This document shows, in pieces, positions 29,740 through 52,489 of a stretch of 64,000 nucleotides of DNA; the first letter of the stretch is position 1; every line of letters begins with the position of its first letter. This DNA is from Hyphomicrobiales bacterium (GTDB lineage Bacteria; Pseudomonadota; Alphaproteobacteria; Rhizobiales; Beijerinckiaceae), in the NCBI GenBank assembly GCA_027484605.1, contig JAIXSR010000089.1, positions 1 through 64,000 of the forward strand, given 5' to 3'. Made by a program: the position numbers and the translations under genes. A model generated the notes under the pieces. It was not told the origin of the DNA. It searched no databases and was given only the letters and a program-made list of their open reading frames with translations.

Positions 29740-29788
29740 GGTCTATGTCAGCCCGGCGGGTCTTCCGGCCCGTGCGGGGTGATGGATC

Positions 29789-33690: not shown

Positions 33691-33742
33691 GATCTCCCCC
33701 TCGCCGCGCTTGACGGCAGCCTGATGATGGTATTTTCTAAAA

Positions 33743-33760: not shown

Positions 33761-33774
33761 CCAGAAGAATTTTG

Positions 33775-35927: not shown

Positions 35928-36518
35928 CTAGCGCAGGCCGTCCCATTTGCTGATCTCGGATTGCTGCAATCCGCCCATGCGCGCATGCGGGCGGCCGCCG
36001 GTCGTCATGGCCAGCACGAACATCAGCTCGTCCGCACGCGGCGAATCCGGCACCACCACGGTCACGCCATCGAAATGCGAACGCACGTAGGCGGCATTGC
36101 GGTGATGGATCGGCACATCGAGCGGGGTGCCGATGGCACCGATCTTCGTCATCGAGGGCACGATGGCAAGCGCCTTGCCCAGCAATTCGCGCATCGCATA
36201 GCCGCCGGGCACATGCCAGAGCGCGCCATGCTCGATCTCGCCATTGGATCCGATCAATGAACCCTTGCCATAGGCCTCGACCTCGGCGGGCTTGATGCCC
36301 ATGGCCGCACAAAGGCGCATCGAGCATTCGAGCCCGAGCGGCTTCAGCAGGTCCATGAAGGGCTGCAGCTCCGGATGATAGGCGCCGGCGAAAGGATTGC
36401 GGAGGATGCAGGCCACCCATCCATGCCGGATCGGCCTGTCGAGGACCGGCCCGCCATCATGGCGCACTTCCTCGACGAAAACCGCGATCTTGCGGACATT
36501 CACGGTGAGATCGACCAT
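35928..36518 (-). CDS. AA_synth (DUF1185) family protein
   Basis: A 196-residue soluble protein matching the AA_synth/DUF1185 family as I recall it: VRKIAVFVEEVRHDGGPVLDRP at the start, AVACILRNPFAGAY-like WVACILRNPFAGAYHPEL, and SNGEIEHGALWHVPGGYAMRELLG. Its enzymatic activity is not known. GGAGG lies seven bases before the ATG, inside the end of the UPF0280 gene (19-base overlap). It is the last gene of the eight-gene operon with the molybdenum hydroxylase and 6-hydroxynicotinate-reductase homologue, so a late step on a ring-opened product is likely. Confidence 0.82.
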   Translation of the reverse strand: MVDLTVNVRKIAVFVEEVRHDGGPVLDRPIRHGWVACILRNPFAGAYHPELQPFMDLLKPLGLECSMRLCAAMGIKPAEVEAYGKGSLIGSNGEIEHGALWHVPGGYAMRELLGKALAIVPSMTKIGAIGTPLDVPIHHRNAAYVRSHFDGVTVVVPDSPRADELMFVLAMTTGGRPHARMGGLQQSEISKWDGLR

Positions 36519-37441
36519 GGTATTTCCTCCCGGCCCGTGGCGGGCATGCTGATGGTGAGTGTCGAATCGGAGTGTGACAGGGCATGGCCCGCGCCGGCCT
36601 GCGGGCCGACAAGCCGATGCTCGCCCTGAAGGCTGAGGGCGGCGGCGCGGATCAGGCCACGCCCGATCAGGGCCCCGGCGAGGGCGGCGCCGGCGGCCAG
36701 CGCCTGCCGCGCAGCTTCGGCCCCCAGCGGCGGAACCGCCACCGTGACCGGCCTGTCGCCGAGATCGCTGTCCGGATCAAGGGCGATGGCCGGCGCCCGC
36801 CGGATTGCCGGATGGCCGGGCAAATCGACGGCATTGGCCACGAGCGTGGCCGCGGCATCCGCCTCGGCGGCCGAGCCAGCAAGCACGGTGACACTGTCGG
36901 CAATGCCCAGCGAGAAGGATCGCCCCTGCGCACCGGATGTCGCGATGCCGCCGATCCCGTCCGCTTCCCTCAGGCGGATCGCGCCGTCCAGCGCCGGCAC
37001 CGGACCACGCGAGAAATCGGCGGCCACACCGATGGCGAGGGTCTCGCCCGGCGCGAGATGCAGGGCAATATCCCCCCCATTGTTCACGAACGCCCGCCGG
37101 AGCGATGCCGCACCGGTCATGGCGGCGAGAACCTCGTCGGCCACCGCGCCGGCAACCGCCGCCATCGGCGTCAGGAAAGCCGGCCGGTGCACCAGGCAGG
37201 CGGTGAGCATCCGCCCGGCGACCGGCCCCCGGAAGCGGCGCGCCGCTGTCGCGGCTTGGCGCAGTTCCGGCAATTCCGCCACCAATTCGCCGAGGATCGA
37301 CCCGAAGCGCCGGATAGCCGCCGCCTCGGCCGCCGCGACAGCCCCGGCCGTGCCCCAGGCCTTGAGGACAAGGTCGATCGGCCCATGCTGGAGATGCAGC
37401 CGCTCGCCGGTCAGGCGCTGGATCCGGGGCGGCTCCATCAT
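36500..37441 (-). CDS. UPF0280 family protein (ApbE superfamily)
   Basis: A 313-residue protein of the UPF0280 group (COG2122 as recalled), distantly related to the FMN transferase ApbE. Markers are LTPMAAVAGAVADEVLAAM, AFVNNGGDIALHL and GGIATSGAQGRSFSLGIADSVTVLA. The NNGGD motif corresponds to the ApbE nucleotide/metal site. It starts three bases after the MarR stop and overlaps the AA_synth gene. A role in attaching or handling flavin for the reductase of this operon is an inference; direct catalysis on a pathway intermediate is the alternative. Confidence 0.8.
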   Translation of the reverse strand: MMEPPRIQRLTGERLHLQHGPIDLVLKAWGTAGAVAAAEAAAIRRFGSILGELVAELPELRQAATAARRFRGPVAGRMLTACLVHRPAFLTPMAAVAGAVADEVLAAMTGAASLRRAFVNNGGDIALHLAPGETLAIGVAADFSRGPVPALDGAIRLREADGIGGIATSGAQGRSFSLGIADSVTVLAGSAAEADAAATLVANAVDLPGHPAIRRAPAIALDPDSDLGDRPVTVAVPPLGAEAARQALAAGAALAGALIGRGLIRAAALSLQGEHRLVGPQAGAGHALSHSDSTLTISMPATGREEIPWSISP

Positions 37442-37444
37442 GGT

Positions 37445-37918
37445 TCAGCCCAGCTTCTCGAGCAGGCGCACGATCTCGCGCTGCTCGCGTTCCGTCAGCG
37501 GCTCGAGCGTGCGCGCGGTGACCGTGGCCCCCTCGGCCTTCATCGCCAGGGTCAGGGCCCGGCCCTGCGGCGAGAGTTCGAGGATGACGAGCCGGGCATC
37601 ATTCGGATCGATGGCCTGCGTGAGCAGGCCGCGCTTCACCAGCCGTGCCGCGATGCCGAACATCGTGGCCGGATCGGCACCGACCGAGCGGCCGAGCTGG
37701 TTCTGCGAGGTCGGACCGAAATCATGCAGCTTGGCCAGGACCGCGAACTGGACCGGCGTCACCTCGAAATCACCCATCACCTGCTCGAAGATCGCACTGG
37801 CACGCTGATGGGCGCGGCGGATCAGATAGCCGATCTGCCGTTCGAGCACGTAATCCGCCACCGCATCCTCGGTGACCGCGGGAATGGGCTTCTCGATCTT
37901 GACGCGCCGCGCTTTCAT
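37445..37918 (-). CDS. MarR-family transcriptional regulator
   Basis: A 157-residue MarR-type repressor. A winged helix-turn-helix lies at about 50-115 (VTPVQFAVLAKLHDFGPTSQNQLGRSVGADPATMFGIAARLVKRGLL), with the wing motif DPNDARLVILELSPQG (DxRxxxxxLT-like). Dimerisation helices lie at both ends. It is cotranslated with the reductase gene (ATGA) inside the catabolic operon, so autoregulation is expected. Three palindromes with core TTCGTAGACGAA at the heads of the three nearby transcription units are its most likely targets. Confidence 0.9.
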   Translation of the reverse strand: MKARRVKIEKPIPAVTEDAVADYVLERQIGYLIRRAHQRASAIFEQVMGDFEVTPVQFAVLAKLHDFGPTSQNQLGRSVGADPATMFGIAARLVKRGLLTQAIDPNDARLVILELSPQGRALTLAMKAEGATVTARTLEPLTEREQREIVRLLEKLG

Positions 37919-39423
37919 CCGCCTCTCCCGAAGGGCCAGGGATTGTCATCCTGCCAGGGCTCGATTCGCGCCTCCGGTGCAATCTCCCGCAGGATATCGC
38001 CGATCGGGACGATATCGCCGGCATGCCCGCCAAGTTTCGCATAGAGATCGCGCGGGAGGGTGAACTCGATCGGCGCCACGATGGCAGGCGTCGGCACATA
38101 GCCGAAGGACCGGCCCGGCATCCGGGTGACATCGGCCATGACGGTGATGCCGCCGCCGGGCCAGAGATAGGCCGGCGCGCCGCCGAGGGTGACGCGCGTT
38201 TCCCCGCGCGCCACGGAGCGGGTCAGCAGGACCGGGTTCTCGGTCACCCCGGCCCGCAGGCTCCCGCCGGCCCCGGCCATGAACACCACCGAGCAGAGCG
38301 AGGGCTCGCAATTCTCCCCGATCCGGTCGACGACGGCCGCCACCGCCGCCGGCATCGGCGCCGGGACGGGCACGAGATTCTCGTCGAGAATGCAATAGAG
38401 CGCATCCTCGCCGGTGGTCGAGGTCAGCAGCAGCCTCAGGCCGGGCCAGGCCTGCGCCGGATCGATCTTCTGGATGATCGAGAGCGGATCGGAAATATCC
38501 GTCCCGCCCCAGCCAAGGCCCGGATTGGCAACCTGGAAATACCGGCCCGGCGTGGATTTCCGCCCGCGCACGCGAATGCCGGCCAGCCGCATGTCCAGGA
38601 CCTTGCCGGCCTGGTGCTCGGTGAGGACGCCGGTAATGTGATCATCGACGACGATCACCTCGTCGACATGGCCGAGCCATTGCCGGGCGAAGATCCCCAC
38701 CGTGGCCGAACCGCAGCCGACGCGCATCCGTTCCTCGGGCCGGCCATCGACGACGGGCGCCTTTCCGGCCTGGACGACGACCCCGTGGCCGCCATCGATC
38801 GTGAGCGTGACGGCCTCGCCCGAGCAGAGCCGGAGCATGGCATCGCAGGTGACATTGCCTTCCTTCTTCGAGCCGCCCGTGAGATGGCGCACCCCGCCGA
38901 TGGAGAGCATCTGCGAGCCGTATTCGGCGGTCGTCACATGGCCGACCTGCTCGCCATCGACCCGGATCGGCGCGGCCTCGGGGCCGAGATGGCGGTCGGT
39001 ATCGATCTTCACCTTCACGCCGCAATAGCTGAAGATCCCCTCCGTCACGACAGTGACCGTATCGACGCCGTCATGTTCGGCCGAGACGATGAAGGGCGCT
39101 GGCTTGTAATCCGGATAGGTCGTGCCCGCGCCGACGCCGCTCACGAAGGTGCGCGCCGGATCGAGCAGCGCGCCATCCCATTCGTTGCGGCCGAACTCGA
39201 CCAGCGGATTGCCGGCTTCGAGCGCCCGCTCGAGCAGGACCACCGGATCGGTGCGCACGAGCTTGCCATCCTCGTTCGCATAGCGCGAACACGCCCCGGA
39301 GCGCCCGGGCCGGATGCGGCAGAGCACGGGGCAGGCATCGCATCGCACGATGCCCTCCTCGCCTTCCGCCGCGCCGAATTTCTTCGACCGGGCCTCGCGC
39401 GAAAGCTGATCGACCGTGCTCAT
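37915..39423 (-). CDS. hnr: 6-hydroxynicotinate reductase homologue
   Basis: A 502-residue iron-sulfur protein matching what I know of 6-hydroxynicotinate reductase. The N-terminal Cys set is C28-x2-C31-x3-C35-x9-C45 (VRCDACPVLCRIRPG, then GACSRYANEDG), followed by TTYPDYKPAPF, ITGGSKKEGN-like LTGGSKKEGNVTCDAM, and VGCGSATVGIFA. In anaerobic nicotinate breakdown this enzyme reduces 6-hydroxynicotinate to 1,4,5,6-tetrahydro-6-oxonicotinate with reduced ferredoxin. Here it lies directly after the molybdenum hydroxylase gene (ATGA overlap) and before marR. A ferredoxin-NADP reductase gene under a similar operator could recharge ferredoxin. The true substrate may be another N-heterocycle. Confidence 0.8.
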   Translation of the reverse strand: MSTVDQLSREARSKKFGAAEGEEGIVRCDACPVLCRIRPGRSGACSRYANEDGKLVRTDPVVLLERALEAGNPLVEFGRNEWDGALLDPARTFVSGVGAGTTYPDYKPAPFIVSAEHDGVDTVTVVTEGIFSYCGVKVKIDTDRHLGPEAAPIRVDGEQVGHVTTAEYGSQMLSIGGVRHLTGGSKKEGNVTCDAMLRLCSGEAVTLTIDGGHGVVVQAGKAPVVDGRPEERMRVGCGSATVGIFARQWLGHVDEVIVVDDHITGVLTEHQAGKVLDMRLAGIRVRGRKSTPGRYFQVANPGLGWGGTDISDPLSIIQKIDPAQAWPGLRLLLTSTTGEDALYCILDENLVPVPAPMPAAVAAVVDRIGENCEPSLCSVVFMAGAGGSLRAGVTENPVLLTRSVARGETRVTLGGAPAYLWPGGGITVMADVTRMPGRSFGYVPTPAIVAPIEFTLPRDLYAKLGGHAGDIVPIGDILREIAPEARIEPWQDDNPWPFGRGG

Positions 39424-42173
39424 GACCGGGCTCCCTTCGCCTGAAGCGCCTCGAAGAGCCGGTGCGGCAGGACTGGCACGCGGCAGATCCGCGCGCCAGT
39501 CGCATGCCGGATCGCCGAGAGGATAGCCGGCGCCGTCGCGACAAGGGCCGGCTCGCCGACGCCCTTTGCGCCGAAGGGTCCTTCCGGCTCCGGATCCTCG
39601 ATGAGATGGATCGTGATCTCCGGCATGTCGCCCACGGTCGGGATCAGGTAATCGTGGAGGTTCTCGGTCCGGCCGGGGATGAATTCCTCCATCAGCGCGA
39701 GGCCGAGACCCTGCGCGATCCCGCCATGGATCTGTCCTTCGGTCAGGGTCGGGTTCACGGCCCGCCCGACATCATGCGCGGCCACGATCCGCCGGACCTT
39801 CACCGTGCCGAGCAGCATGTCCACCTCGACCTCGGCCACCTGGGCCGCAAAGCCATAGGTGGCATAGGGCACGCCCTGCCCCCTCGCATCCAGCCCGGTC
39901 GTCGGCGGGTCATAGGTGCCCCGTCCGACCAGCACGAAGCCTTCGTCATCGCGCGGCAGCGCCGCGAGATCGACCCGGCGGCTGGCCTCGCCGTCGCGGA
40001 TCAGCAGCGTGGCGCCCTCCAGCGCCAGCCGGGCCTCCGGCCCGGCATTGCCCAGCGCGAGAATGGCCCGGCGCAGGTCGAGCCCGGCCAGCCTTGCGGC
40101 ATTGCCGGAAACGAAGGTCTGGCGCGAGGCGGAAGTCTTGCCGGCATCCTCGGTGAGATCGGTATCGCCGATCACCGACTCGAAGGCGGCCGGCGGCAGG
40201 CCCAGCGCCTCGGCGGCGATCTGCAGCAGGACGGTGGTCGAGCCCTGCCCGATATCGACGGCCCCGTTGAAGAAGACCAGACGCCCGTCCGGCAGCAGCG
40301 CGATCCGCATCGTCGAGGGGTTCGACATCGAGGTATTGCCGCAGCCATACCACATGCAGGCCACGCCCGCGCCGCGCCGGAACCGCGTGGCCCCGGCATT
40401 GAAGGCCTCGGCTTCGGCCTCGAATGTCCGGAAGGCGTCCTCCACGGCATCGAGGCATTCCGGCAGGCCGGCCGAGGCATGCAGCACCTGCCCGCTCGGC
40501 GTCCGGTCACCATGGCCCAGCGCATTGCGCCGGCGGATGGCCCAGCGCGACAGGCCGAGCTGCAGGGCCAGGTCGTCCAGCAGGGTCTCGTTGGCAATGG
40601 CGGCCTGCGGCACGCCGAAGCCGCGGAAAGCCCCGGCCGGCGTCTCGTTGGTATAGACCGCCCGCGTCCGGTTGCGGACATGGGGCACCTTGTAGGGCCC
40701 GGTCGCGTGGATCGGCACGCGGTTGGCCACGGTCGGCCCCCAGGAGGCATAGGCGCCGGTATTGAAATCGCCGGTCATCTCATAGGCGAGAAGATGGCCC
40801 TCGGCATCGGCGGAGGCCCGCGCCCGGATCGAGGCGGGATGGCGCTTCGTCGTCGAGGCCATGCTTTCCGGCCGCGTATAGATGATGCGCACCGGCCGGC
40901 CGAGCTGCCAGGCCGCCACGGCAAGCAGCGGCTGCACCGAGACATCGAGCTTGCCGCCGAAGCCGCCGCCGCAGGCCGTCGGGCGGATCCGCACGGCGGC
41001 CTTGGGAATCCCCAGAACCCGGGCCACCTCTTCCTGGTCCATCACCGGGGCCTGCGTGCAGGCGCTGATCTCGATCCGGTCGCCCAGGCGCACGGCAAAG
41101 CCGGCTTCCGGCTCGATATAGGCATGCTCGACGAACGCCGTCTCGAAGGCGCCTTCCGCCGTGACCGCCGCTGCGGCATGGCCGGCCTCGACATCCCCGC
41201 ATTCGAGATAGCCGCGGGTCAGCACATTGTCCGGCACCTTGGCATGCAGCACCGGCGCCCCGGGCGCGAGCCCCATGCCGACACCGATCACCGCCTCTTC
41301 CGGATGCCATTCGATCGGCAGGTCGGCATCCCGCACCGCCTCGACAGCCTCGCGCGTGCCGGCCAGGGCCAGCACCGCCTCGCCGCGGAAGCGGACAAAG
41401 CCATCAGCAAGGACCGGCTGGTCCTTGATGGTCGGGAAGATCCCGAAACTGTTCTCCCCTGGCACGTCTTTCGCGGTGAGGATCGCCACGAGGCCCGGTA
41501 CCCGGTCGAGGACGGGCCGGCAATCGCCGAGGGTGAAGCGCGCGCTGGCATGCGGCGAGCGCAGGATCCGGAGGTACAGCGCATCCCCGGGCGCGGAATC
41601 GGCGCCGAAAAGATCGATGCCCTCCACTTTCGGCCGCCCGTCGACACGGGCGATCCGGGCGCCGAACGCGCCTTCCGGATCCTGCACCGGCAGGCCGCCG
41701 CCGCGGGCGACATCGAGAATGGCCTCGACGATCTTCACATAGCCGGTGCAGCGGCAGAGCACCCCGCCCAGTGCGTCCTCGATGGCGGCGCGCCCGGCCT
41801 GCGGATCCTTCATCAGGCAATCCGCCGCGGCCATGATCATCCCCGGCGTGCAGATGCCGCATTGCGCGGCGCCATGGGCGAGGAACGCCTCCTTGAGGCG
41901 CCGGATCAGCCCGTCTCCATCCTCGCCCTCGATGGTGAGGACCGGAACATCCTCGGCCTGGGCCACCGGAATCAGGCAGGAACAGGCCTGCACGCCATCC
42001 ACGAGCACCGTGCAGGCCCCGCAATCGCCGGCCTCGCAGCCGATCTTGGTGCCGGTCAGGCCGAGATGGTCGCGCAGCACCTCCGAGAGCGGCGTGAACG
42101 GGTCGGCCGTCACTGCATGCGGCTGGTTGTTGACGATCAGGCGCAGGGGCCGCGTCTTGGATCGGTCAAGCAT
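39420..42173 (-). CDS. Molybdenum hydroxylase: fused [2Fe-2S] and Mo-cofactor subunits
   Basis: A 917-residue xanthine-dehydrogenase-family chain. The N-terminal ferredoxin domain has C46, C51, C54 and C66; the helical second cluster domain has C105, C108, C140 and C142 (CGIC and CRC). From about 170 the Mo-cofactor part follows: GGGFGGKLD, AFRGFGVPQA, and near the C-terminus GAKGVGEPAL with the base Glu. Small and large subunits, usually separate in bacteria, are fused here as in aldehyde oxidoreductase; the FAD subunit is encoded by the next gene upstream (TGATG overlap). Such enzymes hydroxylate N-heterocycles beside the ring nitrogen using water. Neighbouring genes favour a nicotinate-like or pyrimidine-like substrate. 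Confidence 0.9.
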   Translation of the reverse strand: MLDRSKTRPLRLIVNNQPHAVTADPFTPLSEVLRDHLGLTGTKIGCEAGDCGACTVLVDGVQACSCLIPVAQAEDVPVLTIEGEDGDGLIRRLKEAFLAHGAAQCGICTPGMIMAAADCLMKDPQAGRAAIEDALGGVLCRCTGYVKIVEAILDVARGGGLPVQDPEGAFGARIARVDGRPKVEGIDLFGADSAPGDALYLRILRSPHASARFTLGDCRPVLDRVPGLVAILTAKDVPGENSFGIFPTIKDQPVLADGFVRFRGEAVLALAGTREAVEAVRDADLPIEWHPEEAVIGVGMGLAPGAPVLHAKVPDNVLTRGYLECGDVEAGHAAAAVTAEGAFETAFVEHAYIEPEAGFAVRLGDRIEISACTQAPVMDQEEVARVLGIPKAAVRIRPTACGGGFGGKLDVSVQPLLAVAAWQLGRPVRIIYTRPESMASTTKRHPASIRARASADAEGHLLAYEMTGDFNTGAYASWGPTVANRVPIHATGPYKVPHVRNRTRAVYTNETPAGAFRGFGVPQAAIANETLLDDLALQLGLSRWAIRRRNALGHGDRTPSGQVLHASAGLPECLDAVEDAFRTFEAEAEAFNAGATRFRRGAGVACMWYGCGNTSMSNPSTMRIALLPDGRLVFFNGAVDIGQGSTTVLLQIAAEALGLPPAAFESVIGDTDLTEDAGKTSASRQTFVSGNAARLAGLDLRRAILALGNAGPEARLALEGATLLIRDGEASRRVDLAALPRDDEGFVLVGRGTYDPPTTGLDARGQGVPYATYGFAAQVAEVEVDMLLGTVKVRRIVAAHDVGRAVNPTLTEGQIHGGIAQGLGLALMEEFIPGRTENLHDYLIPTVGDMPEITIHLIEDPEPEGPFGAKGVGEPALVATAPAILSAIRHATGARICRVPVLPHRLFEALQAKGARS

Positions 42174-43036
42174 CAGGCAGCCCTCCTGGCGGTTTCCTGG
42201 TGGATCCGGGCCAGGGCGTCGCGCACGAGATGCAGCGCCACTTCGCGGCGATACTCGGCACTGGCCCGGACATCGGAAATGGGAACGAGATGCGCGAGAT
42301 GCGCGGCCTCGACACGCCGGGGCGCCGTGGCGAGCCGCTCGCCGGCCAGGGCCGCCTCGAGGCCCGGCAGCCGCAGCGCGACCGGCGAACAGGCGCCGAT
42401 CGCGATGCGCGCCGCGGCAATCCGGTCCTGCGCGTCGAGTTCGACAATCGCCGCCACCATGGCGATGGAGATGACGAGCGAATGGCGCGCGCCCAGCTTG
42501 ACGAAGGCCGCGCGGGCGGGCGGGCCCTTCGGCACGACGAGCGCGGTGACGATCTCGTCGGGACGGAGGGCGATCTGCCGGTAACCGGTCAGGAAATCGG
42601 CAACCGGCAGAAGGCGCCGGCCGGCCTGCGAGGACAGCTCGACCCCGGCATCGAGCGCCATCAGGTTGGGAATGCCATCGCCTGCCGGCGAGGCAGTGCA
42701 GAGATTCCCCGCCAGCGTTCCGCGATTCTGCACCTGCTGTCCGCCGACATGGCGCGAGGCTTCCTTCAGCCCGTCGAAAAGCAGCGGCAGCGGGGCATCG
42801 GCCAGCGCCGCCCAGGTCACCATGGACCCGATCCGCCAGCCCGCCTCGTCTTCCGTGATCGCATCGAGGCCCGGCAGGGCGGAAAGGTCGAGGATATCCG
42901 CCCTCGAGGCATCACCCCAGGCCTTGCGCTGCGCGAAGGCGGGGTAGATATCCGTGCCGCCCGCCATCAGGATGACGCGGCGTTCGGCGCGGATGGCCAA
43001 GGCCTCCGCAAGATCGGTCGGTCGGTCATACCGCAT
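42173..43036 (-). CDS. Molybdenum hydroxylase FAD-binding subunit (XdhB/CoxM-like)
   Basis: A 287-residue subunit with the PCMH-type FAD fold. ILMAGGTDIYPAF at about 22-34 binds the FAD pyrophosphate, GGQQVQNRGTLAGNLCTASPAGD at about 98-120 is the second FAD motif, and a CO-dehydrogenase flavoprotein C-terminal domain follows (LGARHSLVISIAMVAAIVEL). It passes electrons from the 2Fe-2S clusters of the fused partner to NAD+ or another acceptor. It overlaps hyuB before it and the large subunit after it by single-base-step TGATG junctions, which supports fixed stoichiometry. Confidence 0.9.
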   Translation of the reverse strand: MRYDRPTDLAEALAIRAERRVILMAGGTDIYPAFAQRKAWGDASRADILDLSALPGLDAITEDEAGWRIGSMVTWAALADAPLPLLFDGLKEASRHVGGQQVQNRGTLAGNLCTASPAGDGIPNLMALDAGVELSSQAGRRLLPVADFLTGYRQIALRPDEIVTALVVPKGPPARAAFVKLGARHSLVISIAMVAAIVELDAQDRIAAARIAIGACSPVALRLPGLEAALAGERLATAPRRVEAAHLAHLVPISDVRASAEYRREVALHLVRDALARIHQETARRAA

Positions 43037-44703: not shown

Positions 44704-46739
44704 GCGCGGATCCTCAGATTGCCGATCGCGTCGATCCGGGCGCGGGCTCCCGGCTCGATCACGGTGGTCGCGTCGACCTGCTGGATGATGGCCGGGCCGG
44801 CAATCTCGGCATTGGCCGGCAGCGCCTCGCGCGCATAGATCGCCGCCTCGTGCCAGGCCCCCTCGGCATGGATCGGGCGGGTGCCGATCCGGGCTTCCTC
44901 GAGCCGGGTGCGCCGGGCACCGGCCGGCAGCAGCTTGGCAAGGTCGATCCGCCGCCGCCGCCCGATCACCGAGGTCATCACATTCACCACCACCGCCCGG
45001 ATCTCGGGCAGGCGCAACTGGAACCGGGCGAAATAGGCCGCCTCGAACAGGGCCTGCAACGCCTCGCGGCTGATCTCGGCCTGCGGAATCGCAACGCGGA
45101 TCAGGTGGGTCTGGCCGCTGAACTGCATCTCGGCCGCATGCAGTACCTGCCGCTCCTCGATTTCCGCCGCCTCGCCGGCCAGCGCCGCCTCGGCGCTCTG
45201 CCTCTGGGCCAGCCACGTGTCGCGCAGCAGCGCCATGTCGAGCCCGTCCAGGCGCCGGTTGAGCGTGTTGACCCGGTCCTGCCGGAGGTCGGCGACCAGG
45301 CAGCCCAGCGCATTGGTCAGGCCCGGCCGCGCCGGGACCAGCACTTCGGGAATGCCCAGCTCCCGGGCCAGCGCGACGGCATGGAGCGGCCCTGCACCCC
45401 CGAAGGCGAAGAGCACGAAATGGCGCGGATCATGCCCGCGCGACAGCGAGACCATCCGGATCGCCCCGCTCATATGGACATTGCCGAGCCGGATCACCGC
45501 CGCGGCTGCCTCTTCGACGCTCAGACCCAGCGGGCCGGCGAGCTGCTCGTCGAAGATCGCGCGGATGGTCGAGAGCGCGACCGGCGTCTCGACCGCATTC
45601 AGCCGCTCCGGATCGAGCCGCCCGAGGATGAGATTGGCATCGGTGATGGTCGGCCGCCGCCCGCCCCGCCCGTAGCCGATCGGCCCCGGCATCGAACCGG
45701 CGCTTTCCGGCCCCACCTGCAGCATGCCCGCACGGTTGACGAAGGTGATGGACCCGCCACCCGCGCCGACGGTCCGGACATCGACCATCGGCAGATGGAT
45801 CGGCAGGCCGTAATCGATGGTCAGTTCGGCCGAAACCTCCGGCACGCCGTCATGGATCAGGGCCACATCGGTGGAGGTGCCGCCCATATCATAGGTGATG
45901 GCCTGGGCCAGCCCGGCCTGCCGCAAGGTCGCGGCCGCCGCCATAACGCCGGAAGCCGGGCCGGACATCACCGTCTTCGCCGCCTCCTCGGCCACCGCAC
46001 CGGCCGCAACCGTGCCGCCATTGCCATTCATCACCAGCAGCTCGCGCGAGAAGCCGCCGCCGCGAAGCTCTTCCGCCAGCCGGCGGATATAGCGGTCGAG
46101 GATCGGTTGCACGGCGGCATTCACGCTCGCCGTCGTGCCGCGCTCGTATTCGCGGAATTCCGAGAGGAGGCCATGGCCCAGCGTGACATAGGCATTGGGC
46201 CACATCTCCCGGGCGATTTCCCCGGCCCGGATCTCGTGGGCGGGATTGGCATAGGAATGCAGGAAATGGATCACCAGCGCCTCGCATCCCGCCGCGATCA
46301 GCGCCCCGATTTCCCGCCGCACCGCCAGCTCGTCGAGCGGGATGCGCACCTTGCCGCTGGCCTCGACGCGCTCGGGCACCTCGCGCCGGTGCTCCCGGGC
46401 GATCAAGGGCTCGAACGTGCCGAACAGGCCATAGGGCTTCGGCCGGGTCCGCCGGCCGAGTTCCAGCACGTCGCGGAAACCCTCGGTCGTGATGAGGCCG
46501 ACCCGGGCGACCTTGCGCTCGAGCACCGCATTGGTGGTCGCCGTCGTGCCATGGATGATCAGGTCGAGCGCGCCGGGCGTGACACCGGCCGCCGCGATGG
46601 CACGGATCACGCCCTCGGCCTGGTTGGCGGGCGTGGTCGGCACCTTGGCCAGATGGATCACCATGCCGGCGCCCTCGCCCTCCGTCATCAGGAGGTCGGT
46701 GAAGGTTCCCCCGACATCTATGCCCGCCACGCGTCTCAC
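44700..46739 (-). CDS. hyuA: Hydantoinase/oxoprolinase A subunit
   Basis: A 679-residue HyuA-family subunit with an actin-like ATPase core. DVGGTFTDLLM at 8-18 is phosphate loop 1, HGTTATTNAVLERK near 64-77 follows, then YDMGGTSTDVALI, VRTVGAGGGSI and GGAGPLHAVALA. It starts with GTG (46737-46739), chosen because GGAG lies six bases upstream, and there is no nearby ATG. The operator palindrome GTTCGTAGACGAAC (minus strand) ends directly at this ribosome-binding site, so a bound repressor would block both transcription and translation start. First gene of the eight-gene catabolic operon. Confidence 0.9.
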   Translation of the reverse strand: MRRVAGIDVGGTFTDLLMTEGEGAGMVIHLAKVPTTPANQAEGVIRAIAAAGVTPGALDLIIHGTTATTNAVLERKVARVGLITTEGFRDVLELGRRTRPKPYGLFGTFEPLIAREHRREVPERVEASGKVRIPLDELAVRREIGALIAAGCEALVIHFLHSYANPAHEIRAGEIAREMWPNAYVTLGHGLLSEFREYERGTTASVNAAVQPILDRYIRRLAEELRGGGFSRELLVMNGNGGTVAAGAVAEEAAKTVMSGPASGVMAAAATLRQAGLAQAITYDMGGTSTDVALIHDGVPEVSAELTIDYGLPIHLPMVDVRTVGAGGGSITFVNRAGMLQVGPESAGSMPGPIGYGRGGRRPTITDANLILGRLDPERLNAVETPVALSTIRAIFDEQLAGPLGLSVEEAAAAVIRLGNVHMSGAIRMVSLSRGHDPRHFVLFAFGGAGPLHAVALARELGIPEVLVPARPGLTNALGCLVADLRQDRVNTLNRRLDGLDMALLRDTWLAQRQSAEAALAGEAAEIEERQVLHAAEMQFSGQTHLIRVAIPQAEISREALQALFEAAYFARFQLRLPEIRAVVVNVMTSVIGRRRRIDLAKLLPAGARRTRLEEARIGTRPIHAEGAWHEAAIYAREALPANAEIAGPAIIQQVDATTVIEPGARARIDAIGNLRIRA

Positions 46740-46749
46740 AGCGTTCTCC

Positions 46750-46763
46750 GTTCGTCTACGAAC
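46750..46763 (-). promoter_or_regulatory. Regulon operator 1 (hyuA operon)
   Basis: Minus strand GTTCGT-AG-ACGAAC, a perfect palindrome with core TTCGTAGACGAA. It lies between the livF stop and the hyuA GTG and abuts the hyuA ribosome-binding site. The same core lies ahead of the binding-protein operon. Confidence 0.75.
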
Positions 46764-46799
46764 AAGGTGCGGAAGGAGGGAGGACGGACACGGAGCCCG

Positions 46800-47534
46800 T
46801 CACACCGTCAGATAGGCTTCCCGCACCGATTCATCAGCCTCGAGCGCCGCCATGCTGCCTGCATAGCGGATGACGCCCTTCTCGATCACATAGGCCCGGT
46901 CCGACACGGCCCCGGCGAAAAACAGGTTCTGCTCCGAGAGCAGCACCGCGATGCCTTCGTCCTTCATGCGGAGCACGGCCTCGGCCATCTCCTCGACGAT
47001 CACCGGCGCCAGCCCCTCGGAGGGCTCGTCCAGCAGCACCGCCCGGGGATTGCCCATCAGCGTGCGGGCAATGGTCAGCATCTGCTGCTCGCCGCCCGAC
47101 ATGGCGGAGGCCTGCCGGCCACGCATCTCGGCGAGGTTGGGGAAGATCGCGAAGAGCCGCTCGGGCGTCCAGGCCTGCCGGCCCGCCGGCGCCGCACGCC
47201 GCCCGACCTCGAGATTCTCCGCCACCGTGAGATCGGTGAAGATCCGCCGCTCCTCCGGCACATAGCCCAGCCCGCCCCGCGCGATCTCGAAAGGCGAAAG
47301 CCGGGTGATGTCGCGGCCATCGAACCGGATCTCGCCGGTACTGGCCGTGATCAGGCCCATGATGGTCTTGAACGTCGTCGACTTGCCCGCGCCGTTGCGC
47401 CCCATCAGGGCCACCACCTCGCCCGGTGCCAGCGCGAGATCGACGCCGAACAGCACCTGCGCATGGCCATAGCGCGCGGTGATCCCCGAGACGGTGAGGA
47501 TCGGCGCGGGATGGGTGGAACCGCCCGTGCTCAT
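46800..47534 (-). CDS. Branched-chain-type ABC importer ATPase 2 (LivF-like)
   Basis: A 244-residue ATPase: Walker A GRNGAGKST, signature AMSGGEQQMLTIARTLM, Walker B AVLLDEPSEGLAPVI. The LivF marker TRLSPFEIARGGLGYVPEERRIF is present. It starts by a 4-base overlap with the livG-like gene and is the last gene of the importer operon, followed after 60 bases by the hyuA operator and start. Together with LivG it powers uptake of the ligand bound by the LivK-like protein. Confidence 0.92.
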   Translation of the reverse strand: MSTGGSTHPAPILTVSGITARYGHAQVLFGVDLALAPGEVVALMGRNGAGKSTTFKTIMGLITASTGEIRFDGRDITRLSPFEIARGGLGYVPEERRIFTDLTVAENLEVGRRAAPAGRQAWTPERLFAIFPNLAEMRGRQASAMSGGEQQMLTIARTLMGNPRAVLLDEPSEGLAPVIVEEMAEAVLRMKDEGIAVLLSEQNLFFAGAVSDRAYVIEKGVIRYAGSMAALEADESVREAYLTV

Positions 47535-48325
47535 GCCAGCCCCGCTTCATGCTTCTGGCGGCGTGCCGCCAGCGCGGCCTTGACGCCGCTCTCGCCCAGA
47601 TAGACCCGCTTCACATCCGGATTGGCGCGCACCGCCTCGGGCGTGCCGGCGGCGATGATCCGCCCGCGCACCAGCACGAGAATGCGGTTCGCATGGGCAA
47701 AGACCGCATCCATGTCATGCTCGGTGAAGAGCACGCCGATCTGCTCCCGCCGCGCCACATCGGCCGTCAGCTGCATCAGCGCCGCGCGCTCCTTCGGCGC
47801 CATGCCGGCCGTGGGCTCGTCCATCAGCAGCAGGCGCGGCTTCGAGGCCAGCGCGATGGCCAGCTCGACCCGCTTCACATCGCCATAGGCGAGTTCGCTG
47901 ACGGGGCGCCCGGCAAGGTCGGCCATGCCGACGCTGTCGAGCAGGGCCAGGGCCTCGTCGCGGTGAAGGGCGCTGGCCCGGGAAAACAGCGAACGCGTCT
48001 GCCCGCGCAGCGAGATCAGCGCCATCTGGACATTCTCGACGACATTCATCGACATGAAGGTCTGGGCGATCTGGAAGGTCCGGCCCACGCCCTTGCGCCA
48101 GATCACCCGGGGCGGCTCGCCCGCAATATCCTCGCCGCCGAGCAGCACCTGCCCGGAATCCGGCCTGAGCTGCCCGCCCACCATGTTGAAGGTGGTGGAT
48201 TTTCCGGCCCCGTTCGGGCCGATGATGGCCAGCATCTCGCCGCTCTCCAGCGAGAAGGTGACGGAATCGGCCGCGAGCACGCCGCCGAACCTCTTGGTGA
48301 TGCCCTTGACCTCGAGCAGCGTCAT
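47531..48325 (-). CDS. Branched-chain-type ABC importer ATPase 1 (LivG-like)
   Basis: A 264-residue ATPase: ITKRFGGVLAADSVTF, Walker A GPNGAGKST, signature region VSELAYGDVKRVELAIALA (the usual LSxG is replaced by LAYGD, as in many LivG/BraF proteins), Walker B LLLMDEPTAGMAPKE, and the LivG loop GVGRTFQIAQTFMSMNVVENV. Start ATG 48323-48325 overlaps the permease stop. It partners LivF in the hetero-ATPase dimer of this importer. Confidence 0.92.
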   Translation of the reverse strand: MTLLEVKGITKRFGGVLAADSVTFSLESGEMLAIIGPNGAGKSTTFNMVGGQLRPDSGQVLLGGEDIAGEPPRVIWRKGVGRTFQIAQTFMSMNVVENVQMALISLRGQTRSLFSRASALHRDEALALLDSVGMADLAGRPVSELAYGDVKRVELAIALASKPRLLLMDEPTAGMAPKERAALMQLTADVARREQIGVLFTEHDMDAVFAHANRILVLVRGRIIAAGTPEAVRANPDVKRVYLGESGVKAALAARRQKHEAGLA

Positions 48326-50205
48326 GGCCGGCCCTCCGTCCTGCGGCGCGAGCGCCAGGCCTCCAGCGTGCCCACGATGCCGCGCGGGAAGACCAGCACC
48401 ATCCCGATGATCGTCAGCCCCAGGAAGAAGCGCCAGAAATCGGTGAGCGGCATGAAGAAGTCCTTCACCGAATGGAAGGCCGCCGCCCCGACCAGCGGGC
48501 CCGTCACGGTCTGGATGCCGCCGAGCAGGACCATGACCAGGAAATCGACCGACATGGCGATCGAGATCATGGTCGGGTCGATCGAGCCTTTCGAGAAGGC
48601 ATAGAGCCCGCCGGCCAGCCCCGCCGCCGCGCCGGCGATGATGAAGGCCAGCCAGCGATGCCGGCGGATATCGATGCCGATCGCATCGGCCCGGTTGGCG
48701 GAATCGCGCGCCGCCCGGAGGATCGCGCCGAACGGGGCGTAATAGATGTGCCGCAGCAGCAGGATCGCCGGGATTGCGAGAGCCGCGACAACGTAGAAAT
48801 AGACCTCGCGGGCACCGGCCCAGCGCGAGGGCCAGACGCCGACAATGCCATTGTCGCCCCCCGTCACCTCGACCCACTGGAAGAAGATCGCATAGGTGAT
48901 CTGCGCGAAAGCCAGCGTCAGCATGGCGAGATAGATGCCGGAAAGCCGGACGATGAAATAGCCGAACAGCGCCGCCGCCAGCCCCGCCGCCACCGGCGCC
49001 GCCACGAGCGCGGCCTCCATCGGCAGTTTCAGCGGGCCGGTCACCAGCAGGCCGGCCGCATAGGCGCCGATGCCGAAATAGGCGGCATGGCCGAAGGAGA
49101 CGAGCCCGCCATTGCCGATGAGGAAATTGAGCGAGAAGGCCGCGAGCGCGAGGACGAGGATCTCGATCCCGACCTTGATCTTGTAGGAATCGCCCAGGAC
49201 CGGCACCGCCAGCAGGGCCAGCACGAAGCCGGCGCTGACCAGGATCTCGCGGCGGCCGAACCGCTTGAGGTCGATGATGCCCTCCGGCAGCACCGCCCGC
49301 CCGGCCGCAGGATCGGGGCGGCCCAGCAGCCCCCAGGGCTTCACGACCAGCACCACGGCCATCAGCAGGAAGACGAGGACGAGCGTGATCTTCGGAAAGA
49401 TCAGGATGCCGAAGGCCTGGAGCAGCCCGATGATCACGGCCGCGATGAAGGCGCCGGGCACCGAGCCCATGCCCCCGATCACGGTGACGACGAAGGCCTC
49501 GGAAATGATGGTCAGGTCCATATGGCTGTTGGCCGGCAGCCGCGGGATCTGCAGCGCACCGCCGAGCCCCGCCAGGAAGGCGCCGAGAAACAGCGTCCCG
49601 GTGAACAGCATGGCCTGGTTGACGCCGAGCGCGCCCACCATTTCCCGGTCCTGCGTTGCAGCCCGGATGAGAATGCCGAACCGCGTCCGGTGCATGAGCA
49701 GCCAGAGCAGGCCGAGCAGGCAGGGCCCGACGGCGATGAGGAACAGCTCGTAGGCCGGAAAGCGCTGGCCGAAAATCTCGACCGCATGCCGCAGGCCCGG
49801 CGCCCGCGGGCCGGGAATATCGACCGGCCCCCAGAGATGGAGCACGGCATCCTGCACGATCAGCACGACGCCGAATGTCGCCAGAAGCTGGAAGAGTTCC
49901 GGCACCCGGTAGATGCGCCGGAGCAGCAGCACCTCCATCACCACGCCGAACAGCCCGACCGCAAGGGCCGAGGCCAGGACGCCGGCAAAGAACAGCAGCG
50001 GCGAGCGCTCGAATTCGAGCAGCCAGGGCACGATCGTCACCGCGAGATACGCGCCGAGCATGTAGAAGGAGCCATGCGCGAAATTCACGATCCGCGTCAC
50101 GCCGAAGACGATCGTCAGCCCGGAGGCGATGACGAAGAGCGACGAGGCGCTGGCAAGGCCTGAAAGGGCCTGGGTGGCAAGAAGGGCGAGATCCATGCCG
50201 CGCAC
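48322..50205 (-). CDS. Fused LivH-LivM permease
   Basis: A 627-residue double permease. The first half (about 1-295) is LivH-like (GLTIVFGVTRIVNFAHGSFYMLGAY; GVNQAMLFTGTLFLGAFLAGLGGAL). The second half (about 320-627) is LivM-like (LIGNGGLVSFGHAAYFGIGAYAAG; RAARDSANRADAIGIDIRRHRWLAF). In most genomes these are two genes. GTG 50205 has AGGG about six bases upstream; ATG 50196 is the alternative. It forms the channel for the LivK-like protein encoded 115 bases upstream and overlaps the livG-like gene by four bases. Confidence 0.9.
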   Translation of the reverse strand: MRGMDLALLATQALSGLASASSLFVIASGLTIVFGVTRIVNFAHGSFYMLGAYLAVTIVPWLLEFERSPLLFFAGVLASALAVGLFGVVMEVLLLRRIYRVPELFQLLATFGVVLIVQDAVLHLWGPVDIPGPRAPGLRHAVEIFGQRFPAYELFLIAVGPCLLGLLWLLMHRTRFGILIRAATQDREMVGALGVNQAMLFTGTLFLGAFLAGLGGALQIPRLPANSHMDLTIISEAFVVTVIGGMGSVPGAFIAAVIIGLLQAFGILIFPKITLVLVFLLMAVVLVVKPWGLLGRPDPAAGRAVLPEGIIDLKRFGRREILVSAGFVLALLAVPVLGDSYKIKVGIEILVLALAAFSLNFLIGNGGLVSFGHAAYFGIGAYAAGLLVTGPLKLPMEAALVAAPVAAGLAAALFGYFIVRLSGIYLAMLTLAFAQITYAIFFQWVEVTGGDNGIVGVWPSRWAGAREVYFYVVAALAIPAILLLRHIYYAPFGAILRAARDSANRADAIGIDIRRHRWLAFIIAGAAAGLAGGLYAFSKGSIDPTMISIAMSVDFLVMVLLGGIQTVTGPLVGAAAFHSVKDFFMPLTDFWRFFLGLTIIGMVLVFPRGIVGTLEAWRSRRRTEGRP

Positions 50206-50320
50206 TCAGGCCCTGTGATGGGAGGAAGGGATGGCGAAGGCCCGGGACCCGCCCCGCCCGGCAACAGCCCCGGAAGGGGAGGAAAGCGGGAAGGGAAGGT
50301 CCTGGACCATGGCCGTGCGC

Positions 50321-51562
50321 TCAGCCTTTCCGGGCAGCTTTCACTTCGGCCTCGGGGTGGAGATAGGCCGTGCCATCGACATATTTCCAGTTCTTCATCG
50401 CCCCGGCCTTGCCCTTCAGGGTGGTCTCGCCGACCCAGGCGCCAAGGGTGGATTGATGGTCGAGGCCGCGCATCGTCACCGGGCCGCTGATCGTCGTGAA
50501 CTTCATGTCCTTCAGCGTGGCGACGAGCTTCGGCGTCTCGGTCGAGGCCGCCTTCTCGAGCAGCTGGGCGATCATCTCGACCACGACATAGCCGAGCAGC
50601 GAACCCAGCCGCGGCGTGTCATTGAACTTCGCGCGATAGGCGGTGACGAAGGCCTTGTGCTCCGGCGTCTCGATCTGATCCCACGGATAGCCCGTGGTGA
50701 TCCAGCCTTCGGGCGTCTCCTCGCCCAGCGGGATCATGTATTCCGGCTCGCCCGTCAGCAGGCTGACGACGAGGCGCTTCTCGAACAGGCCGCGCGTGTT
50801 CCCCTCGCGGACGAAGGCCGTGAGATCGGCCCCGAACAGCACGTTGAAGATGCCGTCCGGCCGCGACTGGCTCAGCGCGCCGACCGTGGCGCCGGCATCG
50901 ATGCGGCCGAGGGCCGGGAATTGCTCGCCCACCACCTCGAAGCCCGGCACGGCTTCGGCCATCAGCTTCTTGAAATTGGCGGCAGCGGACTGGCCATATT
51001 CATAGTTCGGCGCCACGATCGCCCAGCGCTTGACGCCCTTGGCCTTGGCCGCATCGACCAGCATCTTGGTCTGCATGTAGGTGTTCGGCCGGACGCGGAA
51101 GGTGAAGGGGTTGCCCTGCGCCATCGTGATCGCGTCGGTCAGCGGCTCGGTCGCGAGGAACAGAACCTTGCGCTGGTTGGCGAAATCCGCCACCGCAAGA
51201 CCGACATTCGACAGGAAGGTCCCGGCCAGGAAGGACACGTTCTCGCGCGTCAGCAATTCCTCGGCCACGCGGACTGCATCGCCCGGCGTCGAGCCATCAT
51301 CCCGGAAGACGAATTCCAGCGGCCGGCCACCGAGCGCCTTGATGCCCCCGGCCTTGTTGACCGATTCCTGCGCCAGCTGCATCGCGTTGCGATAGGGCAC
51401 CGCGAAGGCGGCCATGCGCCCGTAGGAATTGAGCTCGCCGATCCGGATCGGCGCGGCCTGCGCCCGGACGCCGCCAGCCCCGAGGACCAGCGAGCCGGCC
51501 GCGATGCCGCCCACCACACCGCGGCGGGAAGGATGATTACGGGAAGTCCTGTTCTCGGTCAT
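50321..51562 (-). CDS. ABC importer binding protein, LivK/Peripla_BP_6 type, Tat-like signal
   Basis: A 413-residue binding protein. The N-terminus has a twin-arginine signal (SRRGVVGGIAAGSLVLGAGG) ending near VRAQA, then PIRIGELNSYGRMAAFAVPYRNAMQLA. Typical family segments are FVFRDDGSTPGDAVRVAEELLTRENV and IVAPNYEYGQSAAANFKKLM. The group binds amino acids, amides, urea and aromatic acids. An operator with core TTCGTAGACGAA lies 62 bases upstream, matching that of the catabolic operon, so the ligand is probably the N-heterocycle degraded there. Confidence 0.88.
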   Translation of the reverse strand: MTENRTSRNHPSRRGVVGGIAAGSLVLGAGGVRAQAAPIRIGELNSYGRMAAFAVPYRNAMQLAQESVNKAGGIKALGGRPLEFVFRDDGSTPGDAVRVAEELLTRENVSFLAGTFLSNVGLAVADFANQRKVLFLATEPLTDAITMAQGNPFTFRVRPNTYMQTKMLVDAAKAKGVKRWAIVAPNYEYGQSAAANFKKLMAEAVPGFEVVGEQFPALGRIDAGATVGALSQSRPDGIFNVLFGADLTAFVREGNTRGLFEKRLVVSLLTGEPEYMIPLGEETPEGWITTGYPWDQIETPEHKAFVTAYRAKFNDTPRLGSLLGYVVVEMIAQLLEKAASTETPKLVATLKDMKFTTISGPVTMRGLDHQSTLGAWVGETTLKGKAGAMKNWKYVDGTAYLHPEAEVKAARKG

Positions 51563-51623
51563 ATCCAGTCTCCTCTTGCGGCGAAGCGCCCGCGAAAGCC
51601 GGCATCGCCCCTCGGATGCAGGT

Positions 51624-51639
51624 CATTCGTAGACGAATG
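51624..51639. promoter_or_regulatory. Regulon operator 2 (importer operon)
   Basis: CATTCGT-AG-ACGAATG is a perfect 16-base palindrome upstream of the binding-protein gene. Its 12-base core is identical to the site ahead of hyuA. Confidence 0.75.
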
Positions 51640-51682
51640 GTATCGGTTTTCATGCGGCTGGCAAGGCCCTCCGGGCAGCATG

Positions 51683-52456
51683 TCAGCGCTCGACGAAAGC
51701 GCGCTCGACGACGTAATGGCCCGGCCGGCTGACGGCCCCTTCCGTGAAGCCGCGGGGCTCGAGCAGGCCGACCATGTCCTGCAGCATGGCGGGCGAACCG
51801 CAGATCATCACGCGGTCCTCTTCCGGCGAAAGCGCAGGCAGGCCGAACGCGGACGGGATGGTGCCCTGCTCGAGCAACGTCGTCAGGCGGCCATTATGCT
51901 CGAACGGCTCCCGCGTCACGGTCGGGTAGTAGAGCAGCTTCTCCCGCACCAGCTCGCCGAGATAGGGATCCTCCGGCAGGATAGTGCGGATATAGTCCGT
52001 ATAGGCGAGTTCATTGGCATGGCGCGTGCCATGGATGAGGATGATCCGCTCGAACCGCTCATAGGCCTCCGGATCCTTGATCACGCTCAGGAACGGCGCA
52101 AGCCCGGTTCCCGTGGCGCAGAGATAGAGCCGCCGCCCGGGCAGCAGGCTGTCCTGGACGAGGGTGCCGGTCGGCTTGCGTCCGACGAGAACCGCATCGC
52201 CGATATCGACCGATTGCAGCCGCGAGGTCAGCGGCCCACCCGCCACCTTGATCGAGAAGAATTCCAGCTCCTCCTCGTGATTGGCACTGGCCATGGAATA
52301 GGCGCGGAGCAGCGGCTTGCCCTCGATATCGAGGCCGATCATCGTGAACTGGCCATTCCGGAACCGGAAAGCCGGGTCCCGCGTGGTCCGGAACGAGAAG
52401 AGCCGGTCCGTGTGATGGCGGACGGCCGTGACACGCTCGACATTGAGACTGGACAT
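51683..52456 (-). CDS. fpr: Ferredoxin--NADP+ reductase
   Basis: A 257-residue flavoprotein. FAD motif RAYSMAS is near residue 51-57, NADP motif ATGTGLAPFLSVI near 109-121, and MICGSPAMLQD near the C-terminus. The size and pattern match the bacterial Fpr subclass I. It exchanges electrons between NADPH and ferredoxin or flavodoxin. It lies directly upstream of the importer operon on the same strand and begins behind a third copy of the regulon palindrome. A dedicated supply of reduced ferredoxin for the 6-hydroxynicotinate-reductase homologue is the simplest reading; a general redox role cannot be excluded. Confidence 0.88.
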   Translation of the reverse strand: MSSLNVERVTAVRHHTDRLFSFRTTRDPAFRFRNGQFTMIGLDIEGKPLLRAYSMASANHEEELEFFSIKVAGGPLTSRLQSVDIGDAVLVGRKPTGTLVQDSLLPGRRLYLCATGTGLAPFLSVIKDPEAYERFERIILIHGTRHANELAYTDYIRTILPEDPYLGELVREKLLYYPTVTREPFEHNGRLTTLLEQGTIPSAFGLPALSPEEDRVMICGSPAMLQDMVGLLEPRGFTEGAVSRPGHYVVERAFVER

Positions 52457-52477
52457 CGCCGATCCACCTCCGGTTCG

Positions 52478-52489
52478 TTAGTGTACGAA
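52478..52489 (-). promoter_or_regulatory. Regulon operator 3 (ferredoxin reductase gene), imperfect
   Basis: The minus strand reads TTCGTACACTAA, 10 of 12 bases equal to the core TTCGTAGACGAA, with a further ACGAA just after. It lies 22 bases before the fpr start codon, about the distance seen for the hyuA site. Confidence 0.55.

Follow-up and report, generated by a model that had tools for sequence, protein, structure and literature searches.

A predicted pyridine-carboxylate degradation unit in a Hyphomicrobiales bacterium with HyuAB as candidate replacement for enamidase

Introduction

How is the ring opened when a gene cluster encodes a homologue of 6-hydroxynicotinate reductase (Hnr) and carries a hydantoinase-type enzyme, HyuAB, in the place where sister clusters carry an enamidase? 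The question is raised by a 64,000-nucleotide stretch of DNA from a Hyphomicrobiales bacterium (GCA_027484605.1, contig JAIXSR010000089.1, positions 1 to 64,000), referred to below as the window. Three blocks on its minus strand, running from 52456 down to 35928, comprise the gene for a ferredoxin-NADP reductase, an operon for a Liv-type importer, and an operon of eight genes in the order hyuA-hyuB-FAD-FeS/Mo-hnr-marR-UPF0280-AA_synth. Judging from gene content and its distribution across genomes, we consider it fairly probable that they form a MarR-controlled pathway for nicotinate or 6-hydroxynicotinate in which the ATP-dependent HyuAB replaces enamidase. An initial annotation had proposed import, molybdenum hydroxylation, ferredoxin-linked reduction and lactam opening by an opener other than enamidase. 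This combination is supported and is conserved in many genomes, although enamidase sister clusters exist and a reductive nicotinate route in aerobes has already been described for Azorhizobium and Bradyrhizobiaceae in the available passages of an earlier study (PMC3511419).

Results

Organization of the eight-gene operon

The genes of the operon are listed in the order of transcription.

44700..46739, minus strand: hyuA, ATP-binding subunit of an oxoprolinase/hydantoinase-type lactam opener, GTG start (Pfam Hydant_A_N, Hydantoinase_A, Hydant_A_C)
43036..44703, minus strand: hyuB, second subunit of the lactam opener (Pfam Hydantoinase_B, 1.7e-162)
42173..43036, minus strand: FAD subunit of a xanthine-dehydrogenase-family molybdenum hydroxylase (Pfam FAD_binding_5, CO_deh_flav_C)
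39420..42173, minus strand: fused 2Fe-2S/molybdopterin (Mo) subunit of the hydroxylase (Pfam Fer2, Fer2_2, MoCoBD_1, MoCoBD_2)
37915..39423, minus strand: hnr, 6-hydroxynicotinate reductase homologue, named after public product names (plasmid records so named, 62-67% identity)
37445..37918, minus strand: MarR-family regulator, candidate reader of the palindrome described below (Pfam MarR, 4.6e-13)
36500..37441, minus strand: UPF0280 (COG2122-type) protein with an ApbE-like predicted fold, proposed cofactor-maturation partner of Hnr (NCBIfam NF003322, 367 bits against a cut-off of 290)
35928..36518, minus strand: AA_synth/DUF1185 protein with a chorismate-mutase-like fold (Pfam PF06684, 1.4e-66; PDB 3BYQ, 2QTP)

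Read directly, five junctions overlap, by ATGA at hyuA/hyuB, Mo/hnr and hnr/marR and by TGATG at hyuB/FAD and FAD/Mo; a gap of a few bases separates marR from UPF0280, which itself overlaps AA_synth. The layout given by the initial annotation, with all three blocks on the minus strand and overlaps among the first six genes, is therefore present as claimed. The extent of hyuB, taken from a listed long open reading frame (ORF), had been over-extended, and its start lies at 44703.

The N-terminal, middle and C-terminal domains of HyuA and the HyuB domain all score above their Pfam cut-offs, which places the pair in the oxoprolinase/hydantoinase family, and the PDB relatives of HyuA include N-methylhydantoinase (1.2e-134) and 5-oxoprolinase (3.7e-104). 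By sequence, the cluster also encodes the xanthine-dehydrogenase-family hydroxylase characteristic of the reductive nicotinate pathway; the 57 PDB matches of its Mo subunit include nicotinate dehydrogenase (3HRD), which is not the top match. The chorismate-mutase-like fold of AA_synth proteins is described in the available passages of PMC2954203.

Hnr is homologous to proteins named 6-hydroxynicotinate reductase in public records, and to that extent the initial call of an hnr homologue holds, although the protein reaches no Pfam or NCBIfam cut-off. Neither by sequence nor by fold was there a PDB match at E 0.001; the best fold match was at 0.086, and with a pLDDT of 79.6 for the predicted model any statement about the fold is tentative. 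Seven cysteines (28, 31, 35, 45, 134, 237 and 372) are kept in every row having the position in an alignment of 60 rows. Residues 135-170 show a weak match to the C-terminal barrel of glycine cleavage T-protein, seen in 57 of 57 Hnr proteins.

HyuAB and enamidase exclude each other among hnr genomes

Relatives of hnr were sought by scanning genome contigs with an alignment of five hnr proteins, which gave at least 558 confirmed relatives. Neighbourhoods were mapped by tblastn, using the proteins of the window and of two sister loci, at 128 loci: those of the best 80 of these at least 558 relatives, four plasmid loci, 43 loci from a census of 289 genomes sampled evenly across the window's class, and the window itself. 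The class is taken to be that of the closest named records, Alphaproteobacteria. An hnr frame of 400-600 residues is present at 127 of the 128, and 124 different loci were counted.

In the sister loci an amidohydrolase takes the place of HyuAB. The copy at one of them (L006) matches the Eubacterium barkeri enamidase 2VUN at 2.4e-111, and hnr-linked amidohydrolases from 27 further loci share 52-76% identity with this copy. Within the stretch read at each of the 124 loci, hyuA or hyuB was found at 52, enamidase at 28, both at none and neither at 44; for the 81 loci with at least 9 kb on either side the corresponding counts are 39, 24, 0 and 18. We then have, genome-wide, 44 hnr genomes among the 289 of the census: HyuA of the window's kind occurs in 26, a close enamidase in 17, both in none and neither in a single genome (G226, which is 70% complete). 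Given these margins, the probability of zero overlap is 2.6e-11, a value that ignores kinship. Whole-genome search thus shrinks the 'neither' class: 16 of 43 census loci fell into it, whereas 1 of 44 genomes does. A third opener was looked for in the 'neither' loci and rejected: no ORF cluster among the top 22 is common to more than three of them, and no amidase-type protein turned up when seven cluster representatives were scanned against Pfam.

How the two sets were delimited bears on these counts. Close enamidases are 66-75% identical, with a gap beneath them down to 42%; if E 1e-50 is the sole criterion, G064 and G104, both HyuA genomes, are picked up as well, with proteins 37-40% identical. 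For HyuA a 54% identity line was set after inspecting the list, and the HyuA search did not list relatives that fall under this line in enamidase genomes. At E 1e-180 alone 34 genomes match, 26 with hnr and eight without; the 17 hnr genomes that have a close enamidase are all absent from this set. In the window's own genome, where HyuAB lies in the operon, enamidase gave no match at 1e-5, whereas a nearly identical enamidase query matches at 66-75% identity in 18 other genomes. The enamidase of the reductive nicotinate pathway was thus not found there.

Both openers are rare among the 245 census genomes without hnr, where a close enamidase occurs in one (G082) and HyuA at 54% identity or more in three. 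Two of these HyuA genes (G217, G114) have a different Mo enzyme as neighbour; the remaining one (G127) is at a contig end, adjoining the same Liv transporter set. At two loci in genomes without hnr (L156, 5617-11626; L157, 7163-13031) hyuAB relatives 56-65% identical accompany a different Mo enzyme (27-28%).

The opener has changed repeatedly on a shared backbone

Quick trees were built for Hnr (78 rows), the Mo subunit (60) and the binding protein of the importer (34), and their tips were labelled by opener. The minimum number of label changes is 10, 5 and 4, respectively, of which 5, 3 and 3 are forced by high-support branches alone. An earlier tree that included L141, a locus of a one-contig genome (G028) in which hnr is split across two frames, gave 11 and 4. 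A single HyuAB clade is rejected by the approximately unbiased (AU) test (p-AU 3e-57 for hnr and 7e-6 for the Mo subunit). That the same backbone has borne both openers several times is our main reason to think that both act on the same kind of ring.

Several points weigh against the proposed nicotinate pathway with HyuAB as opener. On all three trees the opener labels cluster, shuffled labels averaging 23, 18 and 10 changes for hnr, Mo subunit and binding protein, so substrates may differ in part between HyuAB and enamidase lineages. All 28 enamidase loci have a second AA_synth gene, compared with 2 of 52 HyuAB loci, a hint against a simple one-for-one swap. Linkage is imperfect: the stretches read at the 43 census loci contain HyuAB in 16, enamidase in 11 and neither in 16, and HyuA lies 55-77 kb from hnr on the same contig in three genomes (G105, G135 and G236). 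The genome-wide searches scored the top 4-6 candidates per genome for each opener. HyuA, at 481 bits, is far under the NCBIfam caprolactamase cut-off of 1000 (the curated CapA and CapB cut-offs are missed with 481/1000 and 311/1000 bits), and the identity of hnr derives from public product names and not from the E. barkeri or Azorhizobium sequences. Finally, four Methylobacterium loci have no linked FAD/Mo genes.

The enamidase is likewise distant from hnr, by about 370 kb, in G197; at its locus (L162, 7274-15849) genes for an amidase and for a family III CoA-transferase lie nearby. A Rieske oxygenase gene occurs at 12 of the 124 hnr loci (for example L005, 15570-16640): at 8 of 28 enamidase loci, 2 of 52 HyuAB loci and 2 of the 44 with neither opener in view. 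It is possibly an N-demethylase for methylated pyridine acids.

The clustering of labels on the Mo-subunit and binding-protein trees, the second AA_synth gene that tracks enamidase and the Rieske oxygenase, possibly a demethylase, could all be accounted for if the HyuAB version degraded another pyridine carboxylate by the same hydroxylase, Hnr and UPF0280 logic, be it picolinate, isonicotinate, an N-methylated betaine (homarine, trigonelline) or a pyridone. We consider this unlikely, since HyuAB and enamidase alternate repeatedly on the hydroxylase, Hnr and binding-protein trees, no hnr genome of the sample has both openers at close identity, and the Rieske gene occurs with both. With picolinate, for example, lactam opening would lead to 2-oxoadipate; for homarine, which we keep within the same alternative, our literature search found no catabolic operon for comparison. 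It is very improbable that the unit degrades purines, hydantoins or lactams, with hnr in a side role or some other function. The Mo subunit does score on xanthine-dehydrogenase models, and HyuA has N-methylhydantoinase and 5-oxoprolinase among its relatives, but all of those model cut-offs are missed, and hnr is the member that stays constant. Where other hnr genomes have HyuA, 17 of the 44 carry a close enamidase, which fits a cyclic enamide and not a purine.

No partner of hnr is linked to it as tightly as UPF0280

The initial annotation had treated UPF0280 and AA_synth as extras. For UPF0280 this view is not supported: with a threshold of E ≤1e-20, it is found in the identical 44 of 289 genomes that carry hnr, an unusually clean co-occurrence. 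UPF0280 is present at 121 of the 124 different hnr loci, in each directly after hnr or after hnr and marR. It adjoins hnr at 41 of the 43 census loci, and in both exceptions hnr is near a contig end.

An AlphaFold model of UPF0280 built from 61 sequences (pLDDT 91) has an ApbE-like predicted fold. Foldseek places DVU1097 (PDB 2O34) at the top, followed by the flavin transferases FmnB and ApbE at 1e-5 to 1e-3 (FmnB 9.7e-6, ApbE from 2.1e-4), with modest TM-scores of 0.28-0.46 on the model. When a UPF0280 profile is compared with four ApbE proteins of related genomes, the ATSG and ADAxAT motifs align (hhalign probability 46%, E 2e-4). The ADAxAT segment is the metal site of ApbE, and in UPF0280 its A194 and D195 are kept in 65 of 65 rows and T199 in 62 of 65. 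Unlike the flavin transferases, UPF0280 misses the Pfam ApbE gathering score (17.4 against 25.6 bits; 32 of 61 members give a hit when E up to 1 is allowed) and its alignment columns lack the SHTxDPxTG loop, which is present in the four ApbE proteins of relatives and whose histidine is catalytic in ApbE. A canonical ApbE is encoded in 22 of the 44 hnr genomes and in none of the other 22; the window's genome has none either. The Hnr of E. barkeri reportedly carries a covalently bound flavin. On the predicted model, UPF0280 is probably a cofactor-maturation partner of Hnr; a role as flavin transferase proper is possible, a sulphur or iron-sulphur role being the alternative.

We take UPF0280 to be the same as COG2122, and both the sequence profile and the fold, with DVU1097 as top match, place it in that family. 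The available passages of PMC5764234 describe COG2122 in homocysteine synthesis of Desulfovibrio and methanogens, with DUF39 as its partner, and suggest a sulphur-transfer (persulphide) role. The missing histidine loop and the modest TM-scores leave a serious, if less than even, chance that UPF0280 is such a sulphur-transfer protein here, or an unrelated pathway enzyme. However, DUF39 was found in none of the 44 hnr genomes in a search whose controls, including M. jannaschii and M. acetivorans, match, so that the homocysteine role of COG2122 does not explain UPF0280 here, and the fold match to FmnB/ApbE is significant, with ATSG and ADAxAT kept.

Conservation of the gene set

A conservation search across genomes showed that the gene set recurs in many of them, and the lack of co-occurrence that would have spoken against the initial annotation was not observed. 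The Mo subunit is found at 109 of the 124 hnr loci and the FAD subunit at 101, with the order FAD-Mo-hnr at 98. Among the best 80 of the at least 558 relatives, those closest by hnr are from Phreatobacter (83-84% identical) and have the same HyuAB operon order as the window. Falsiroseomonas loci (77-80%) have no marR mapped, and Bosea (79%) has the enamidase version of the cluster. In Methylobacterium (81%) HyuAB is present and the FAD/Mo genes are absent from the locus. At five loci (L008, L015, L016, L017 and L020, four from Methylobacterium and one from an Acetobacteraceae metagenome-assembled genome) hyuB directly precedes hnr with no FAD/Mo genes between; these may rely on a hydroxylase encoded elsewhere or begin with a pyridine that is already hydroxylated. 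A Mo enzyme near hnr at L016 was considered as the Methylobacterium nicotinate hydroxylase and rejected, as it scores above the cut-off for a PaoC-like aldehyde oxidoreductase.

Close to the window's organism the unit is sporadic and may have been gained by transfer, since hnr is present in none of 16 other genomes of the genus and in 6 of 20 of the same family. One locus (L088), from a record named Solirubrobacterales bacterium 70-9, has an hnr 69% identical, reflecting transfer or contamination.

A shared palindrome precedes the three transcripts

The importer operon, which encodes a binding protein, a fused permease and two ATPases, and the reductase gene lie on the same strand as the eight-gene operon; operator-like palindromes stand upstream of each block.

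46751..46762: operator-like palindrome upstream of hyuA, TTCGTCTACGAA
46800..47534, minus strand: Liv-type ABC transporter ATPase, LivF-like (Pfam/NCBIfam models)
47531..48325, minus strand: Liv-type ABC transporter ATPase, LivG-like, start picked from sequence (Pfam ABC_tran, BCA_ABC_TP_C)
48322..50205, minus strand: fused Liv-type permease (Pfam BPD_transp_2)
50321..51562, minus strand: periplasmic substrate-binding protein (Pfam Peripla_BP_6, 1.8e-69)
51626..51637: operator-like palindrome upstream of the binding-protein gene, TTCGTAGACGAA
51683..52456, minus strand: ferredoxin-NADP reductase, likely electron supply of Hnr (Pfam FAD_binding_6, NAD_binding_1)
52478..52489: one-mismatch palindrome upstream of the reductase gene, TTCGTACACTAA in minus-strand reading, beginning 33 bases before the start

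The best NCBIfam model of the reductase gene is ferredoxin--NADP(+) reductase (155.8 bits against a cut-off of 390), and no ferredoxin gene was identified within the unit.

The palindrome TTCGTNNACGAA has five exact copies in the 4.01-Mb genome, and a reversed-pattern control has none. That a single palindrome type precedes all three transcripts, as initially annotated, holds exactly for hyuA and the binding-protein gene, while the reductase copy has one mismatch. The remaining three exact copies were rejected as regulon members because they lie inside open frames. The loci read, 2.31 Mb in all, contain seven exact copies where base composition predicts 0.67, and six of the seven are within 70 bases of the start of a mapped pathway gene.

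We also scanned the 160 bases before each gene for the palindrome with at most one mismatch, using shuffles that preserve base composition only; the counts include the window, near-copies from one genus, a duplicate pair (L031/L099) and genes lying further down their operons. Matches were found upstream of hyuA in 10 of 51 cases (shuffled mean 0.05), the FAD gene in 25 of 104 (0.2), the binding-protein gene in 5 of 55 (0.15) and the reductase gene in 2 of 7 (0). The figures are 3 of 59 for marR and 2 of 127 for hnr (0.25 each), and 0 of 27 for the amidohydrolase gene (0.1). The operon's own MarR gene and the palindrome common to all three transcripts give the unit the make-up of a regulon, and the MarR protein is likely the reader of the palindrome. 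Import, molybdenum hydroxylation, ferredoxin-linked reduction and lactam opening are apparently one co-regulated unit.

Neighbouring genes

An HMG-CoA-lyase-like gene (33541-34713, plus strand) and a CaiB-type CoA-transferase gene (34710-35918, plus strand) are convergent with the operon, and similar pairs occur near hnr at three other loci (L006, L049 and L052). We do not accept the pair as glutarate steps and treat it as a lead only, the best model of the CoA-transferase being succinate--glutarate CoA-transferase at 267 of a 750-bit cut-off. None of the CoA-transferases of seven other loci reaches a cut-off; the same model is best in five and another in two. A large protein with POR and DUF6537 domains (57919-61377, minus strand), which presumably resembles indolepyruvate ferredoxin oxidoreductase, is another possible ferredoxin user near the unit. 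At 28759-32949 (plus strand) a tripartite tricarboxylate transporter receptor gene adjoins genes for a sensor kinase and a sigma-54 response regulator.

Discussion

In the pathway that we favour, the Liv-type importer would take up nicotinate or a close pyridine carboxylate, and the FAD and FeS/Mo enzyme would hydroxylate the ring next to the nitrogen. Hnr, probably with UPF0280 as its dedicated maturation partner, would then reduce the pyridone with electrons passing from NADPH through the reductase gene product to ferredoxin. HyuAB would open the resulting cyclic enamide with ATP (1,4,5,6-tetrahydro-6-oxonicotinate if nicotinate is the substrate), and MarR would control the three transcripts via TTCGTNNACGAA. 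That AA_synth hydrolyses an enamine product is a guess. The enamine or formylglutarate-level product would be deaminated and enter glutarate metabolism, as in Azorhizobium according to the available passages of PMC3511419 and PMC9304392.

The proposed route has both parallels and differences among known systems. The anaerobe E. barkeri is said to ferment nicotinate with a bifunctional enamidase. The host studied here is, unlike E. barkeri, likely an aerobe, since a catalase-peroxidase-type gene (Pfam peroxidase) and a LysR-type regulator gene adjoin the unit. HyuA and HyuB share the domain make-up of the oxoprolinase/hydantoinase/caprolactamase family, from which they differ in missing the NCBIfam cut-offs, and we know of no characterised member of this family that acts on tetrahydro-oxonicotinate. 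As proposed here, 6-hydroxynicotinate is reduced to a cyclic enamide in E. barkeri according to the available passages of PMC9304392. The nicotinate cluster of aerobes, as the available passages of PMC3511419 describe it, comprises a hydroxylase, hnr, an importer and two conserved unknown proteins. In Azorhizobium, Bradyrhizobium, Rhodopseudomonas and strain SG-6C we read its third step as that of an enamidase homologue, a word that these passages do not contain (PMC3511419); here HyuAB is the candidate for this step, and enamidase was not found in the genome.

Among open-licence papers we found none that links HyuAB with the reductive nicotinate route or UPF0280 with Hnr. What is new is comparative, namely that hnr and UPF0280 share the same 44 of 289 genomes, that the two openers exclude each other among the hnr genomes sampled, and that the opener has switched repeatedly on the trees. 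Taken jointly, and more speculatively, Hnr may have a fold new among solved structures, with its cofactor installed by a dedicated UPF0280 of the ApbE superfamily that lacks the histidine loop; HyuAB may be an ATP-driven replacement of enamidase swapped several times, and AA_synth may handle the enamine product.

These findings bring UPF0280, AA_synth/DUF1185 and a HyuAB subgroup together as one testable pathway, present in 44 of the 289 census genomes. Should UPF0280 mature Hnr, a clean two-gene test system would become available for a family that we otherwise know only from a puzzling role in homocysteine synthesis. If HyuAB opens the ring that enamidase opens, a single cyclic enamide would be opened in nature in two unrelated ways, one of which costs ATP.

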